Shown here piece after piece: positions 3,248-63,859 of a stretch of DNA of 64,000 nucleotides (the stretch's first letter is position 1; each line of letters starts with the position of its first letter). Below the pieces are notes generated by a model. The model did not search any database. It worked only from the letters and a program-made list of their open reading frames with translations, and was not told the origin of the DNA. Where the stretch lies: positions 1-64,000 of the forward strand of contig WQVK01000002.1 in the NCBI GenBank assembly GCA_009784025.1. The letters are read 5' to 3'. Source of the stretch: Defluviitaleaceae bacterium (GTDB lineage Bacteria; Bacillota; Clostridia; Lachnospirales; WQUN01). A program made the translations under genes and the position numbers.

Positions 3248-3439
3248 AAACCGCCAGAAGCTTTGCCGGCCATATCTCCACCGCTTTCATAGGGTTCGTT
3301 TCGCCAACCAGGCATTTCATGCCGCAGGATTTATTTCGTGTTACTTTTGAAAAAAGCTTGGCAAAAAATTTTAGTTTTTTTGGTTTTGTGGTACCATACG
3401 GTACCATTTTTTCTTGATTATGGTACCGTATGGTACCAT
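3248..3439. repeat. Intergenic mosaic repeat with paired GGTACC palindromes
   Basis: The 578-base gap 3177-3754 has no gene. Bases 3248-3375 are a degenerate arm of the dispersed GAGGCTTTGCC element (AAACCGCCAGAAGCTTTGCC, then a TTTCGTGTTACTTTTGAAAAAAGC stretch, shown here in parts). The palindromic cassette follows: GGTACCATACGGTACC at 3390-3405, then its reverse complement inside ATGGTACCGTATGGTACCAT at 3420-3439, able to fold into one long hairpin. The rest of the gap is AT-rich, with a loose inverted repeat (AAATTAGCCAT at about 3493, ATGGCTAAATT at about 3557). The same cassette recurs at 27604 and 44167. Confidence 0.75.
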
Positions 3440-9062: not shown

Positions 9063-9340
9063 ATAAAATCGCAAGAGGCTTCGCCAGGTTTCTTTTGAGT
9101 TGCATTTGAAAAAACTTTCACAAAACTTTAAATTTGAAAAAGACCGTCGCTGAAAAATTCAGTTGGTCGGAAAATCCGACCAACTGAATTACATCCGCAA
9201 AACCGAAAAACACGGGGCGTATAAACCCAAGCAAAATCCGGGCAACACGTCTCTACCACAAAATTAAATTTCAAGTTTTTTTGCTTCTTTTTTTCCAAAA
9301 AAAGAAGTGGAGGTGTCGGAGGCGAAGCCTCTGACGGTCT
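9063..9340. repeat. Composite inverted repeat with GTTGGTCGG palindrome
   Basis: This fills most of the 325-base gap between the two oxidoreductase genes; no gene is seen in it. The left arm at about 9068 reads CGCAAGAGGCTTCGCC, then a TGCATTTGAAAAAACTTT-like tail. The centre at 9157-9189 is a perfect palindrome of arm ATTCAGTTGGTCGGA, 3 bases and the complement. The right arm holds a poly-T/A hairpin (CTTCTTTTTTTCC.. at 9284-9307), then GTGGAGGTGTCGGAGGCG and AAGCCTCTGACGGTC (9307-9339). Arms and centre each recur elsewhere in the window. Confidence 0.8.
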
Positions 9341-11021: not shown

Positions 11022-11139
11022 TGCGCAGGAATGACAAAATGATTAACGTCACGGCGTTAACTGCGTTTTCCCGCTTTGTATGGGCGAGAAGCTTTGCCTT
11101 TCGAAGAACTAAATGCATGAAAATTGACCATCTTCTTAT

Positions 11140-11171
11140 ATGGGTTATGCTGTGAATGGTGGAAATAACGC
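11140..11171 (+). repeat. Left copy of 32-bp inverted repeat around a GNAT gene
   Basis: Begins ATGGGTTATGCTGTGAA and ends GGAAATAACGC. It pairs with 12002-12033 in inverted orientation with a single mismatch (T versus G at the middle). The two copies bracket about 830 bases holding one acetyltransferase gene. The 381-base gap 11022-11402 has no other gene. Confidence 0.85.
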
Positions 11172-11402: not shown

Positions 11403-11978
11403 ATGGAAATACGTTATATTCCTGATGGGACGATGACGGAAGAACAACAAAAACATGTGGATATAATAAATGAAATGTGCTTGTCGGGCGACCCCGATGA
11501 CCCTGAGGAAGATAATGAATTTGACGAAAGCACATACGAATATAGCGCGCCGGAGGATGGTATGTTCCTGCTTTTTGATGGCGAAAAAGCTGTTGGGCGG
11601 GCTGCGGTGCATAAAGTATTAACCGAATATGACGGACAAGAATATTTTTTGGGAGGCTTCGGCGGTTTGGCGGTTCTTCCCGAATATCAAGGGAAAGGTT
11701 ATGCGAGAAAACTTGCTGAAGCGGCGTTGGCAAAGGCTGACGAAATTGGGATTGACGTTGCCTGCATGGAGGCTGAAACGGAAAGTGGCATAATTAATTT
11801 CTACCAAAAACTAGGTTTCGTACTTTTGAAGCGTCCCGCTTATTTCATAAATCACGGAAATAATGAAGTAACAGATAATAACGTAATGATTATGGGATTA
11901 CGAAATAAAGAACTCGCCAATAAAATCCTTACGACTAATCATAAATTTCATTATGGTAAGAGTTTGGGGCACTGGTAA
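11403..11978 (+). CDS. GNAT family N-acetyltransferase
   Basis: 191 residues. The acetyl-CoA-binding core is 'GGLAVLPEYQGKGYARKLAEAALAKADEIG' at about residues 83-112, containing the Q-x-x-G-x-A/G-type loop QGKGYA. 'ESGIINFYQKLGF' is the typical beta-6/alpha-4 'FY.K.GF' segment. The acceptor is unknown. The ATG at 11403 has AGGGGGA upstream. Its codon choice (GAA, AAT, TAT-rich) differs from the GCC/GGC-rich neighbours, and it lies inside the 32-bp inverted repeat, so recent acquisition is plausible. Confidence 0.85.
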   Translation: MEIRYIPDGTMTEEQQKHVDIINEMCLSGDPDDPEEDNEFDESTYEYSAPEDGMFLLFDGEKAVGRAAVHKVLTEYDGQEYFLGGFGGLAVLPEYQGKGYARKLAEAALAKADEIGIDVACMEAETESGIINFYQKLGFVLLKRPAYFINHGNNEVTDNNVMIMGLRNKELANKILTTNHKFHYGKSLGHW

Positions 11979-12001: not shown

Positions 12002-12033
12002 GCGTTATTTCCACCCTTCACAGCATAACCCAT
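12002..12033 (-). repeat. Right copy of 32-bp inverted repeat around the GNAT gene
   Basis: Reverse complement of the copy at 11140-11171 with one mismatch. It starts 23 bases after the acetyltransferase stop. No clear target-site duplication is visible outside the two copies. Confidence 0.85.
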
Positions 12034-12066
12034 AAGTTTTCATAGTGGCGGCTTTGGGCGCGGCAG

Positions 12067-12107
12067 CGCAAAACAACTTATTACAATCTGTAATAAGTTG
12101 TTTTGCG
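12067..12107. terminator. Palindrome of the TTATTACA family, likely terminator
   Basis: The stem is CGCAAAACAACTTATTACA (19 bp, perfect) with loop ATC. It is followed by a short T-rich stretch on the plus strand and stands between convergent GNAT and ftsW transcription. The inner part recurs at 19153 and 55853. Confidence 0.6.
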
Positions 12108-13443: not shown

Positions 13444-13460
13444 ATTTTCACCTCATATCA

Positions 13461-13558
13461 CTAGACTTCTTCCGAAATTCCCGTAAGAGAGTTCGAAAAA
13501 GTTACATTTTAAATCATTTGCTTCTTCTGAAATTGCGTTTGTTACAATTTCAGAAGAA
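13461..13558 (-). repeat. Intergenic module D (TTCGGAAGAAGTCTA type) with hairpin
   Basis: Read with transcription it starts, just after the murD stop, with a perfect 14-bp hairpin (arm TTCTTCTGAAATTG, 13522-13558). It continues with a TTTAAAATGTAACTTTTTCG stretch and ends in GGGAATTTCGGAAGAAGTC, 18 bases before the ftsW start. Homologous modules in the same relative orientation lie at 28491-28546 and 48794-48893. Confidence 0.75.
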
Positions 13559-17392: not shown

Positions 17393-17573
17393 CAACCGTC
17401 GGAGGCTTCGCCTCCAACACCTCCACTTCTTTTTTTCAAAAAAAGAAGCAAAAAAACTTAGCATTGGAATAACAGGCCATGGATCCTCATCCACCCCATA
17501 AACTTTAAAGTTTTTGTCAAACTTTTTTCAAAAAGTTTGTGGAGGTGTGGTCGGCGAAGCCTCTGACGGTTTC
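17393..17573. repeat. Inverted pair of dispersed elements in the murE-murF gap
   Basis: The left arm is ACCGTCGGAGGCTTCGCC, TCCAACACCTCC and a poly-T/A hairpin (17393-17448). The right arm is an AAACTTTTTTC hairpin, then GTGGAGGTGTGGTCGGCG and AAGCCTCTGACGGTTT (17502-17573). The arms point at each other, and the right arm ends 4 bases short of the murE stop. Confidence 0.75.
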
Positions 17574-19152: not shown

Positions 19153-19187
19153 AAACCAACTAATTACAGATTGTAATTAGTTGGTTT
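19153..19187. terminator. Terminator after the U32 gene (TTATTACA-type palindrome)
   Basis: A 16-bp perfect stem (AAACCAACTAATTACA and complement) with loop GAT. T runs on the plus side and A on the other side, so it may work both ways. It starts 10 bases after the U32 stop and separates it from the mur cluster. Confidence 0.65.
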
Positions 19188-23462: not shown

Positions 23463-23502
23463 AACTCAGTTGGTCGGAATTTCCGACCAACTGAGTTTTT
23501 TT
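23463..23502 (+). terminator. Terminator after cymR, built from the GTTGGTCGG palindrome
   Basis: The stem AACTCAGTTGGTCGGAA pairs perfectly with its complement around a short loop and is followed by seven T. Same palindrome core as at 9157, 36512, 52076, 59847 and 63833. Confidence 0.85.
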
Positions 23503-27424: not shown

Positions 27425-27656
27425 TTTAAAACAGTGGGCTTTGCCAACACCTAAAAACTTTTAATAATGTTCGCTTTGCCCGATTTGTTTCGGGCTACAT
27501 TTGATAAAGTTTTTCAAAAAACTTTATCGTCCAACTAAACAATGTTGATATTCCGGGGAAAATTCAAGTTCTGATATTGAAAAAAGGGGAGAAAACACGA
27601 AATTATGGTACCATACGGTACCATTTTCTATGAAAAATGGTACCGTATGGTACCAT
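27425..27656. repeat. Mosaic repeat with GGTACC hairpin between the two permease genes
   Basis: The arm region at 27425-27535 (TGGGCTTTGCCAACACCT, TTTCGGGCTACATTTGATAAAG) is followed by the GGTACC cassette: ATGGTACCATACGGTACCAT at 27604-27623 and its complement at 27637-27656. The 13-base loop itself can pair further. It separates two genes that should be co-transcribed, so it could lower expression of the second permease. Confidence 0.8.
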
Positions 27657-28472: not shown

Positions 28473-28490
28473 AATACCTCCTGTGCCATA

Positions 28491-28546
28491 AGTAGACTTC
28501 TTCCGAAGTTCCCGCAGGGGGTTTCGGAAAAGTTACATTTTCAATC
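28491..28546 (-). repeat. Intergenic module D, second copy (truncated)
   Basis: Minus strand: GATTGAAAATGTAACTTTTC, then CGAAACCCCCTGCGGG and AACTTCGGAAGAAGTCTACT, ending just before the ribosome binding site of the permease gene. It lacks the leading hairpin seen at 13522 and 48794. Confidence 0.7.
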
Positions 28547-36511: not shown

Positions 36512-36556
36512 AAAAAAACTCAGTTGGTCGCATTTTGCGACCAACTGAGTTTTTTG
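36512..36556 (+). terminator. Strong terminator built from the GTTGGTCG palindrome
   Basis: A-run, stem ACTCAGTTGGTCGCA, 4-base loop region, complement, T-run. A near copy of the cymR terminator with GCA/TGC in place of GGAA/TTCC at the loop base. It may act in both directions. Confidence 0.85.
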
Positions 36557-40654: not shown

Positions 40655-40746
40655 GGTGAAATATAGGGCCGCGGGTTTCACCCACACCCAGCATCTTTTT
40701 TTGAAAAAAGATGGGCAAAAAACTTGAATTTTTGGGGATTTACTTC

Positions 40747-40825
40747 AGCGAAGTTTAGGCAAAAGCCAAGGGCGCAAGAAAGGAAACAACGTTCTTACAC
40801 TCTTGGCTTTTGCCTAAATTTCGCT
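40747..40825 (-). terminator. Long hairpin after the histidine kinase gene
   Basis: The arms AGCGAAGTTTAGGCAAAAGCCAAG (24 bases, quoted in part AGCGAAGTTTAGGC) at 40747-40770 and 40802-40825 pair with one mismatch around a 31-base loop. It begins 13 bases past the kinase stop codon. It probably ends the kinase transcript; the T run is weak. Confidence 0.55.
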
Positions 40826-40837
40826 TAACAAAAAAAA

Positions 40838-42538
40838 TTAAATTTGGTGGCTGTATCCCAGTTTTTGCTTCAATATATCCAACATATCTTCTATTTTTAA
40901 GGGTTTGCCTATATGGGCGTCCATGCCAGCTGCTAGGCATTTTTCTATGTCTTCCCGGAATACGTTGGCTGTCATGGCTATTATTGGGATGGTTTTTGCG
41001 TTGGGGGCGGTTAGTGTTCGTATGCTGCGCGTGGCTTCGAAGCCGTCCATTTTGGGCATTTGTAGGTCCATGAATATTAGGTCGTATGATTCTGGGGCTG
41101 CTTGGTACATATTTACGGCGTCTTGGCCGTTTACGGCACAGTCTATGGTAATGTTGGTGGGTTTTAGCAGGGATGTTACAATTTCGCGGTTTATATCTAC
41201 ATCTTCCACCAGGAGTACGCGCTTGCCCGTGAAATCTACTACTTTGCCCTTCATTGCCGATGGCATAGGGTAGAAGCTGCCGGTGCGGCCGCCTTGGCCG
41301 CCGCGTTTCATTTTGAATGTGACATTAAAGGTCGAGCCTTCGCCAAGCGTGGATTCCACCCATATGCGGCCGCCCATTAGTTCTACTATGTTTTTTGTAA
41401 TGGACAGGCCAAGGCCCGTGCCGCCGTATTTGCGGGTTGTGTTGGATTCTGCCTGGTGGAAGGCTTTAAAGAGGTTTTTTTGTTGTTCTGGGCTTATGCC
41501 TATGCCGCTGTCGGTTACTTGAAGCTGGATGGTGCACATGCCGTTTTCTTCTTCTAGCAGCCAGGAGTCCAGTCGGATTAGGCCGTTGCTGGGGGTGAAC
41601 TTTACTGCGTTGCTTAATAGGTTTGTTAGCACTTGCACCAGCCTGTGGTCATCGCCAACAAGTAGCTGCGGTACGCTATCGTCTATTTTTAGTTCAAAAT
41701 GCTGGTCCTTCTCGCGCACTCTAAGGGAAATCACTTCTGCTACCCAGCCCATGGTTCTTTTGAAGTCAAATTCTTCATCAGAAAGTTCAAGTTTGCCGGA
41801 GTCAATTTTGGCCATATCCAGGATATCGTTGATAATGCTAAGCAAATGCTTGCTGGCTTCTTCTATTTTTTCTAAAGAATACTGGGCCTGCTCGAATTCT
41901 TTTGCGGATTTTCCTATGGTGGTCATGCCAATTATTGCGTTCATTGGGGTGCGTATTTCGTGGCTCATGTTTGACAAAAACACCGCGCGCGCCTGGGCTG
42001 CATGGGTGTAAGATGTACAAAAAACGCAAACGATTGCGTTTATGCCAACCATGGTAAGATAATTCACGTAGTTTTGCGCTACGGTAAAGTTTTCGCCCAG
42101 CATATTGCTGCCCAGCCCGAACAGTATAATCCCCTGGGCAATGCTTATAGAAACCGTGTAAATAATTATGCCGCGAGGTTTCATATAAGTGAAAGAAATA
42201 AGCGCCCCGCCGATAGTATAGGTAAAAATTAAAAAATCGCCGCCAAAAATCACAGCCCCAATGGATAGGAACATGATAAGCATTAGCGGCGTTAGAAATG
42301 ATAGCACTTCAGCTTTTAATGAACTTCTTTCCAACAAAACATAACCAACAAGTTTGCAGGCACTAAGGGCAATTCTTGTAACAAATGTATCCATATCAAA
42401 AACAAGATAAGCATATGCTCCAGAGGCAATCGAATAAAATACCAAAATAATAAAAATATGAGGCGCAGTAACATTTTTCTCTAACCCGCCCAGCACGTAT
42501 TTTCTAACAAAAGGAACCATAAATGAACTCCTCGCCAT
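40838..42538 (-). CDS. Membrane hybrid histidine kinase with C-terminal receiver
   Basis: 566 residues. About six membrane helices fill 25-175, with no extracytoplasmic sensor domain large enough to name. The HisKA box is 'FLSNMSHEIRTPMNAIIG' with His193. The HATPase domain has 'NLLSNAVKFTPSNG', 'DSGIGISPEQ' and 'GGTGLGLSI'. The receiver at about 439-566 carries 'VLLVEDVDINREIV' and phospho-acceptor Asp491 in 'FMDLQMPKMDG'. No Hpt domain or output domain follows, so phosphate must pass to a separate protein. Start at the ATG at 42538 (GGAG 7 bases upstream); the ATG at 42520 also has GGAG and is an alternative. Confidence 0.92.
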   Translation of the reverse strand: MARSSFMVPFVRKYVLGGLEKNVTAPHIFIILVFYSIASGAYAYLVFDMDTFVTRIALSACKLVGYVLLERSSLKAEVLSFLTPLMLIMFLSIGAVIFGGDFLIFTYTIGGALISFTYMKPRGIIIYTVSISIAQGIILFGLGSNMLGENFTVAQNYVNYLTMVGINAIVCVFCTSYTHAAQARAVFLSNMSHEIRTPMNAIIGMTTIGKSAKEFEQAQYSLEKIEEASKHLLSIINDILDMAKIDSGKLELSDEEFDFKRTMGWVAEVISLRVREKDQHFELKIDDSVPQLLVGDDHRLVQVLTNLLSNAVKFTPSNGLIRLDSWLLEEENGMCTIQLQVTDSGIGISPEQQKNLFKAFHQAESNTTRKYGGTGLGLSITKNIVELMGGRIWVESTLGEGSTFNVTFKMKRGGQGGRTGSFYPMPSAMKGKVVDFTGKRVLLVEDVDINREIVTSLLKPTNITIDCAVNGQDAVNMYQAAPESYDLIFMDLQMPKMDGFEATRSIRTLTAPNAKTIPIIAMTANVFREDIEKCLAAGMDAHIGKPLKIEDMLDILKQKLGYSHQI

Positions 42539-42561
42539 AAAACAACTCCATTTCTGCGATA

Positions 42562-42590
42562 AATATAACATTTGATAAAGTTGCAGTCAA
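42562..42590 (-). promoter_or_regulatory. Near-consensus promoter of the hybrid kinase gene
   Basis: Minus strand: -35 TTGACT (42585-42590), 17 bases, -10 TATATT (42562-42567). Confidence 0.6.
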
Positions 42591-44065: not shown

Positions 44066-44392
44066 AACCGCCAAAGGCTTCGCCAGCCGCACCTCAAAAA
44101 AATTTTTAATCTCTTTCGGGTTATGTTTGAAAAAAAATTTATCAAAAACTCAGTTTTTTTGAATTTATGGTACCGTATGGTACCATTTTTTTGCGATTAT
44201 GGTACCACATTTATGTCAAAAAAGGACTATAGTACACCAGAGAACCCCATAAATTCACTGTTTTTGTGAAAAATTTTTAAAACTTTTGATAAGAGTTTTT
44301 TTAAACGTAATTTCAGAAATAAATCGGGCAGCGTGAAGCGAGCCTTATGAACGGTTTTTGAAGGTGCGGCGGGCAAAGCCTCCAACGGTTTC
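44066..44392. repeat. Complete composite repeat with GGTACC palindrome (327 bp)
   Basis: This occupies nearly the whole 353-base gap 44049-44401; no gene is seen. Outer left AACCGCCAAAGGCTTCGCC and outer right GGCAAAGCCTCCAACGGTTT are inverted. Inner left TCGGGTTATGTTTGAAAAAA.. and inner right ..AAACGTAATTTCAGAAATAAATCGGG (in parts) are also inverted. In the middle stands ATGGTACCGTATGGTACCAT (44167-44186) with a half copy ATGGTACC at 44199. It is the clearest example of arms plus palindromic cassette. Confidence 0.8.
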
Positions 44393-52021: not shown

Positions 52022-53677
<1,656 letters not shown>

Positions 53678-55852: not shown

Positions 55853-55893
55853 GCGATTTCAACTTATTACAGATTGTAATAAGTTGAAATCGC
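55853..55893. repeat. TTATTACA-family palindrome in the spoIVB-ung gap
   Basis: A 19-bp perfect stem (GCGATTTCAACTTATTACA and complement) with loop GAT. The inner part is the same as at 12067 and 19153. There is no T run, so it is not an obvious terminator here. The remaining part of the 339-base gap 55731-56069 shows no gene. Confidence 0.75.
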
Positions 55894-59780: not shown

Positions 59781-59965
59781 AGACCGTCAGAGGCTCTGCT
59801 TCAGGCACCTCAAAAAACTTTAATTTTTGGGTAGCAGGCTATGCAATTCAGTTGGTCGCAAATTGCGACCAACTGAAACCACAAGTATCTGCAAAAACAC
59901 CAATGTTAAAGTTTTTGCCAAGCTTTTTTCAAAAAGCGGAAGGGGTTTGGGGCTACGCCCCAAGG
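59781..59965. repeat. Composite repeat with GTTGGTCG palindrome between dusB and the secreted protein
   Basis: Left arm ACCGTCAGAGGCTCTGC..GGCACCTC. Palindrome at 59847-59877 with arm TTCAGTTGGTCGCA. Right arm GCTTTTTTCAAAAAGC, then GGGGCTACGCCCCAAGG. Same build as 9063-9340. Confidence 0.75.
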
Positions 59966-63832: not shown

Positions 63833-63859
63833 CAGTTGGTCGGAAAATCCGACCAACTG
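63833..63859. repeat. GTTGGTCGG palindrome between two DUF4330 genes
   Basis: Arm CAGTTGGTCGGA, 3 bases, complement: the same 27-base core as at 9160 and 52079. A TTGAAATCAAAAACCGTAAT stretch like an eroded arm precedes it. Confidence 0.75.

Follow-up and report, generated by a model that had tools for sequence, protein, structure and literature searches.

The window analysed here, a stretch of 64 kb, is the beginning of contig C2 of a bacterial genome of 2.14 Mb that is assembled in 67 contigs and 82% complete (G000). Judged by the DusB protein, its closest named relatives are MAGs labelled Defluviitaleaceae, mostly at 67-72% identity. The codes Emb289, Co191 and Lab288 in the names of these MAGs denote higher-termite gut samples in the accessible part of PMC7024585, and the window probably stems from an uncultured bacterium of the termite gut. 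Like the genome as a whole, which is unusually rich in small repeats, the window carries several families of short repeated sequence, including 12 sites of three palindrome classes (P1, P2 and P3) that lie 2.9 to 8.9 kb apart, as well as an arm repeat that often forms convergent pairs (Table 1). P1 is a 27 bp palindrome, CAGTTGGTCG-N7-CGACCAACTG, of ca. 35 bp with its commonest flanks; P2 is a site GGTACCRTAYGGTACC, usually present as two sites exactly 32 bp apart; and P3 is another 27 bp palindrome, CAACTWATTACA-N3-TGTAATWAGTTG. Two inverted repeats of other kinds are also found. One of 33 bp (11139-11171 and 12002-12034; 97% complementary, 830 bp apart) encloses a GNAT acetyltransferase gene (11403-11978), with which it possibly forms an invertible or mobile unit, and one of 42 bp (40739-40833; 83% complementary, 11 bp apart) adjoins the 3' end of a minus-strand gene (40838-42571).

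Table 1. Palindrome sites and arm repeats located in the window.
Feature	Position	Strand	Remarks
P2 pair, 32 bp apart	3390..3437		exact match
Convergent arm pair	9069..9337		around P1 site at 9160; module scan
P1 palindrome	9160..9186		inside gap 9063-9340
P3 palindrome	12074..12100		
Convergent arm pair, empty	17396..17569		example without palindrome site; module scan
P3 palindrome	19157..19183		
P1 palindrome	23467..23493		
P2 pair, 32 bp apart	27607..27654		
P1 palindrome	36521..36547		
Convergent arm pair	44068..44388		around focal P2 site; module scan
P2 site, intact	44169..44184		focal gap 44066-44392
P2 partner, half-decayed	44201..44216		at a distance of exactly 32 bp; first box kept, second lost; read directly
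P1 palindrome	52079..52105		
P3 palindrome	55860..55886		
Arm repeat, 3 mismatches	59783..59800	+	left of P1 site at 59849; motif scan
P1 palindrome	59849..59875		inside gap 59781-59965
P1 palindrome	63833..63859		

Beyond the window, we scanned every module in a discovery sample of 847,129 bp of the same genome, in which a custom gene-calling script recognised 703 genes, and then in a hold-out of 387,518 bp of fresh stretches for which all patterns had been fixed beforehand. Both samples together cover 58% of the genome, and the findings thus come from one incomplete genome.

Arm repeats and other small repeat families

The preliminary description had seen one shared plan in the gaps at 9063-9340, 44066-44392 and 59781-59965, with inverted arms bracketing palindromes that are exchanged as modules. 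The arms and palindromes noted there are indeed present, and a genome-wide search with the arm and cassette sequences confirmed that the modules recur far above chance in this genome, where P1, the arm core and the GGTACC site of P2 are all found genome-wide instead of being confined to the window. The relatives examined are mostly without these sites, so that the copies are not each conserved at orthologous places across distant species. At up to 2 mismatches, the core of the arm (ACCGTCAGAGGCTTCGCC...) has 79 forward and 76 reverse copies (reversed-pattern control 0), and intergenic arm neighbours up to 500 bp apart in the 847 kb are convergent in 13 cases, tandem in 1 and divergent in 0. 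However, the 13 convergent pairs do not follow one plan but differ in content: 3 hold P2, 2 hold P1, 1 a MITE and 2 a TTTCGGGTTACATTTG block alone, while 5 contain no recognised module. Conversely, just 2 of 74 P1 and 6 of 98 P2 sites in the 847 kb lie inside convergent arm pairs, and 35 of 115 arm clusters fall within 500 bp of P1 or P2 (null mean 44), which is no enrichment. Since so few palindromes are enclosed and the arms do not gather near them, we regard the arms as separate from the palindromes. Arms, P1 and P2 thus appear as independent families, now and then found in the same gap, not as modules exchanged between arms, and the common plan of the three gaps is most plausibly a matter of chance, with repeats nested in gaps that are rich in them. 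The arms are a decaying family, with 29, 35, 31 and 49 copies at 0, 1, 2 and 3 mismatches, and their spacing in the 847 kb is no more regular than random.

The TTTCGGGTTACATTTG block itself belongs to a segment CATAAGGTTCGCTTCGCGAACCCGGC...TTTCGGGTTACATTTG with 37 matches in 847 kb; some arms carry this segment in the loop of their CTTTT...AAAAG hairpin and others lack it, as if it had been inserted there (examples are L071:12004-12210 and the L058/L059 region at C5:65435). Further families add to this repertoire. The MITE-like F2 has the ends ATAGTGAAATAATTCGAAATCGGTCTCGCC and GGCGAGACCGTTTCTCATTTATTTCACTAT and an inner hairpin AACGCCTTATCTCGGCGTT, and one or other of its end patterns is matched ca. 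120 times in 847 kb, one example lying behind the P1 site at G000:C4:54453; 2 matches in L086, a contig of another relative MAG, suggest that F2 may be shared between genera. E5 (ACTAATCTCAATTAAA), E6 (TTAGAGTTCTTCTGAAAT), E7 (TAGACTTCTTCCGAAATTCC) and E8 (CGCTCCACCTAAAAAC) have 14, 102, 105 and 36 matches in 847 kb, respectively, with window examples among these four families at 13457-13515 and 28488-28546, and 14 of 30 intergenic E8 matches lie between convergent genes. Copies at 0, 1, 2 and 3 mismatches number 15, 44, 34 and 54 for E6 and 17, 19, 12 and 47 for E7, a broad spread that marks both, like the arms, as decaying families.

Conservation, context and distribution of the palindromes

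P1 has 158 copies with up to 1 mismatch in the genome (reversed-pattern control 6), and its copies are distributed over 0, 1, 2 and 3 mismatches as 90, 8, 2 and 1. Stem positions 1-10 are nearly invariant in 101 copies, and 180 of 192 CAGTTGGTCG half-sites are part of perfect palindromes. Beyond the core the flanks remain symmetric, with a mean exact extension of 4.22 against 1.82 for shuffled flanks (n = 74), which could result from hairpin upkeep or equally from insertion into palindromes that were already there.

P2 is more elaborate. Its GGTACC site occurs 250 times in the genome (control 0) and forms 108 pairs when up to 2 mismatches are allowed, while consecutive sites within clusters are spaced by exactly 32 bp in all 62 of 62 cases (43 and 19 in two successive scans). 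Single sites are distributed over 0, 1, 2 and 3 mismatches as 133, 11, 3 and 4. Sites that match exactly have a best partner that is either preserved (0-1 mismatch; 110 of 133) or lost (5-10 mismatches; 23 of 133), with nothing in between, and in elements with exact outer boxes the inner boxes are intact in 38 of 38. At the same time, 49 of 52 exact pairs have differing linkers, with a pairwise identity of 0.433 in the inner eight bases against 0.279 in the nearby background. Because the linkers have diverged while the boxes stayed intact, the intactness of P2 is not mere recency. P3 has 58 copies at up to 2 mismatches (control 0), and 29, 0, 3 and 0 copies at 0, 1, 2 and 3 mismatches. Nearly undecayed as all three classes are, and with P2 boxes that outlast their linkers, they look selected; P1 and P3 could simply be recent, as a clear internal clock exists only in P2.

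Two further properties of P2 were considered and set aside. GGTACC is avoided in genes of this genome (observed/expected 0.39), a possible sign of P2 binding, but the value is 0.33 in G029, and A/T tracts phased at ca. 10.5 bp around P2 have a counterpart in the similar phasing around E6 and E7, so that shared ancestry may explain them. Many P2 elements also carry A/T tracts and a terminator-like hairpin on one side (e.g., AAAAAAGCCCGCAAACATGGGCTTTTTTT), 50-70 bp from the boxes, whose sequence varies between copies while the pairing is kept in several; P2 may have in this flank a second part that acts at the level of RNA.

The intergenic DNA of the genome is divided by neighbouring genes into 58% tandem, 20% convergent and 22% divergent base pairs. 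Of 85 P2 clusters, 39 are tandem, 29 convergent and 14 divergent, with 2 at contig ends and 1 in a low-scoring gene call, so that gaps between convergent genes hold more than their share of P2 (29 of 82 intergenic clusters). No such enrichment is seen for P1 (n = 101; 61 tandem, 11 convergent, 13 divergent, 1 contig end, 15 in genes) or P3 (n = 32; 21 tandem, 5 convergent, 5 divergent, 1 contig end). The 15 P1 copies inside called genes, one of them a short and low-scoring call, use the reading frames unequally: 12 share one frame (mostly SVGRxxRPTE), 3 use a second (QLVGxSDQL) and 0 the third. We aligned relatives for 3 of these 15 genes, namely those for what we take from the look of their sequences to be V-ATPase subunit B, a YgiQ-type radical SAM protein and an RNB-type protein. 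The P1 motif occurs in 0 of 29, 0 of 28 and 0 of 29 aligned sequences of relatives, respectively, with the qualification that one YgiQ sequence (L221) misses the insertion place and two RNB locus pairs share genomes. The extra segments of the P1-bearing proteins exceed P1 alone, e.g., with ca. 17 residues in V-ATPase B compared to L165, and some relatives carry unrelated insertions in the same loop, which indicates that these places tolerate insertion.

Outside this genome the palindromes are rare. Among 397 further genomes of the phylum none has P2 pairs, P3 is missing from all 37 family relatives, and the exact P1 core occurs among these 37 only in G014, a member of another genus of the same family, with 18 copies. 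The looser pattern CAGTTGGT-N11-ACCAACTG has 160 matches in the own genome, 64 in G014, 2 in G022, 1 in G016 and 0 in 34 others. The palindromes of G014 change in their inner stem on both sides together (CGC/GCG, GGC/GCC, TGC/GCA, AAC/GTT; e.g., G014:C1:35986-36012), and its 64 P1-like sites are much less dense than in the own genome and lack evident even spacing as judged from their positions; neither P2 nor P3 was found there. The single G016 site resembles the outer half of P1 joined to the inner half of P3 and, with the shared length of 27 bp, hints that P1 and P3 may be relatives. Contigs of the nearest named relatives (L084-L090, 102.6 kb) gave no P1, P2 or arm, zeros that are weak since the scan may skip matches. 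Plasmid records contained no match to the focal gap, and viral contigs contained neither P2 pairs nor P3, and P1 in one; this is IMGVR_UViG_3300029927_000060, with an exact P1 at L313:614-640.

Three unlike palindrome classes are evenly spaced and avoid each other

Taken together, the 74 P1 sites and 55 P2 clusters of the 847 kb form 114 neighbour intervals with a mean of 6.5 kb and a CV of 0.448, whereas 5000 random sets placed in distinct intergenic gaps with weighting by gap length (the gap null) had a mean CV of 0.85 and a minimum of 0.648. None of these intervals is shorter than 2 kb (24 expected) and only 4 are shorter than 3 kb (37 expected), with the closest neighbours 2921 bp (P1-P2), 2606 bp (P2-P2) and 2378 bp (P1-P1) apart. 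P3 shares this behaviour, as just 1 of its 20 sites lies within 2 kb of P1 or P2 where 14 were expected, and it was joined to the set only after this avoidance had been seen. All three classes then make up 149 sites and 134 intervals in the 847 kb with a mean of 5.6 kb and a CV of 0.395 (null 0.834, minimum 0.639 in 3000 sets), and 1 interval below 2 kb remains against 32 expected. The longest interval of the discovery sample spans 16.2 kb on C6, across a mostly same-strand run of genes.

For single classes we used the positions of other repeat families as an empirical null. P2 alone is evenly spaced by this measure (CV 0.549 vs 0.89), while P1 alone (0.725 vs 0.90, P 0.036) is clear only at short range, with 1 interval below 3 kb against 10.7. 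The other repeat families of the genome have no such spacing rule and serve as built-in controls: E6 and E7 are spaced no more regularly than random, and F2 has no shortage of short intervals, although its CV is rather low (0.751 vs 0.88, P 0.08-0.10). A search for further sequences that avoid P1-P3 among 20,707 words yielded none that convinced us (best P ca. 1e-4 before correction).

The hold-out gave the same picture, with 69 sites, 57 intervals and a CV of 0.444, compared to 0.774 under the gap null (minimum of 3000 sets 0.524) and 0.942 under uniform placement. Intervals below 2 kb number 4 against 14.9 (gap null) and 19.8 (uniform), and P1 and P2 without P3 have a CV of 0.478 vs 0.783. 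A P2 and a P3 site only 766 bp apart, the closest pair of the hold-out, show that the exclusion is not absolute. Pooling both samples results in 218 sites and 191 intervals with a mean of 5460 bp, a median of 4989 bp, a CV of 0.411 and 5 intervals below 2 kb. Neighbours are of the same class in 65 of 191 intervals (73.7 expected, P 0.09), i.e., the classes are mixed almost at random.

This distribution is closely matched by a simple model in which the observed number of sites is inserted at random into intergenic DNA with an exclusion of 3 kb around every site already placed. The model gives a CV of 0.413, a median of 4949 bp, quartiles of 3899 and 6484 bp and a 95th percentile of 10103 bp, compared to observed quartiles of 4062 and 6629 bp and a 95th percentile of 9840 bp; without exclusion the CV is 1.12. 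However, 19 of the 191 pooled intervals fall below 3 kb, a range that the model leaves empty, and the real exclusion is therefore graded and softer than modelled.

Proposed chromosome landmarks and competing explanations

We consider it an evenly balanced proposition that P1, P2 and P3 are interchangeable, evenly spaced landmarks of the chromosome, about one per 5 kb. Each class would be recognised by a putative DNA-binding protein, to which conservation and fixed geometry point only indirectly, with P2 presumably bound by a multimer that touches two sites three helical turns apart, and one protein or related ones might read all three classes. New sites would arise through insertion of short palindromes, and a site already present, whatever its class, would bar them or lead to selection against them over a distance of ca. 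3 kb; together the sites would serve chromosome organisation or another DNA-level function. Such an explanation must assume one rule common to three dissimilar sequences, and the intervals below 3 kb and the P1-like sites of G014 with their lack of evident even spacing speak against it. Of the possible uses, we find chromosome organisation the likeliest, with selfish spread under target immunity as the main rival. The idea of a nucleoid landmark, already raised in the preliminary description, fits the palindromes well, as they are evenly spaced and mutually exclusive; the flanking arms are unrelated repeats.

The rival that fares best, though we think it unlikely, sees selfish palindromic mobile elements that share one transposition machinery with target immunity and are of no use to the host. 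Existing copies of Tn7, Mu and Tn3 repel new insertions nearby, and some transposons show such immunity over kilobases. The good fit of a simple insertion model with exclusion speaks for this view, as does P1 inside genes in segments absent from relatives. However, no ends are common to the three classes, and the immunity would need to extend to all of these dissimilar sequences. Free decay of dead copies would also not leave P2 boxes intact between diverged linkers, and no match to the Y1 transposase family PF01797 at E <= 0.001 was found in the own genome at its 82% completeness, which leaves the RAYT link considered in the preliminary description unsupported.

Signals for DNA uptake or packaging, where one site per fragment of several kb suffices and sites would consequently spread out, are quite improbable. 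Haemophilus uptake sequences are dispersed genome-wide at ca. 1 kb average spacing according to the accessible part of PMC7811141, and a benefit of one site per fragment could yield an even spread. Yet the same text has uptake sequences arise by point mutation while P1 sits in inserted segments, P1 is almost always a whole palindrome, and it would take three dissimilar motifs.

That the sites are bidirectional terminators of transcription, spread as copies through the genome, is highly improbable. Several P1 sites form hairpins bordered on either side by A and T tracts, e.g., at 23467 and 36521 just behind genes, and the enrichment of P2 between convergent genes would suit termination. But P2 (14), P1 (13) and P3 (5) also lie between divergent genes and 15 of 101 P1 copies inside genes, which equally weakens the transcription-end landmark proposed before; terminators moreover tolerate stem changes that are nearly missing from P1, and their use leaves the avoidance between classes unexplained. 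A single modular REP/MITE-like element with exchangeable palindromes is barely credible, for all that three window gaps look like one with convergent arms, given the sparse palindromes within arm pairs, the 5 of 13 pairs without a recognised module, the lack of arm enrichment near palindromes and the different decay and spacing of arms and palindromes.

Among known systems, P1 resembles the Rickettsia palindromic elements (RPE), in-frame palindromic repeats inside unrelated protein genes (PMC10969869, accessible part), as it too lies inside genes with the reading frame kept. Length and description set them apart, with ca. 150 bp for RPE and 27 bp with short semi-conserved flanks for P1, and the accessible text of that source does not mention even spacing or shared exclusion. 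REP and REPIN sequences are similar in being many short intergenic palindromes with doublets of fixed spacing. However, REPIN doublets are consistent with a random distribution over extragenic DNA in the accessible part of PMC3116915, unlike P1-P3 (CV 0.395 vs 0.834; hold-out 0.444 vs 0.774). REPs further carry a GTAG or CGTC tag at the end of a hairpin with a stem of 8-9 bp (PMC3733652, accessible part), and neither tag is found at the consensus ends of P1, P2 or P3; the arm does hold CGTC, but its hairpin stem has only ca. 5-6 bp. USS/DUS are likewise short motifs dispersed over the whole chromosome, but are not whole palindromes of several kinds.

Protein-binding sites offer another comparison, since P2 boxes are kept relative to their linkers and P1, P2 and P3 are less decayed than arms, E6 and E7. 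parS, matS and Noc sites are palindromes that are each read by one protein in chromosome organisation, but they are far fewer or regional, whereas P1-P3 occur once per ca. 5 kb in three classes with shared exclusion. NrdR boxes, paired 16 bp palindromes at a distance of about three helical turns, resemble P2 in paired geometry, but they have another sequence and occupy few sites at nucleotide-reductase genes, compared to 108 P2 pairs genome-wide. We found no described spacing rule shared by unlike DNA sites in a literature search that had most subscription journals outside its scope, and rate this rule as new, while single P1 elements resemble a known kind, the RPE.

The usual view of short palindromic repeats is that they are selfish DNA or RNA hairpins, and REPINs, where tested, are placed randomly. 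Dissimilar palindromes under one spacing rule imply something that senses distance along the chromosome, which bears on the division of bacterial DNA into kilobase domains and on the placement of small repeats. We tentatively suggest, as a possibility somewhat short of an even one, that the three palindrome classes are interchangeable docking sites of one protein system, kept or inserted about every 5 kb, even in genes, and with none within ca. 3 kb of another. If true, this would be a bacterial means of measuring distance along DNA.
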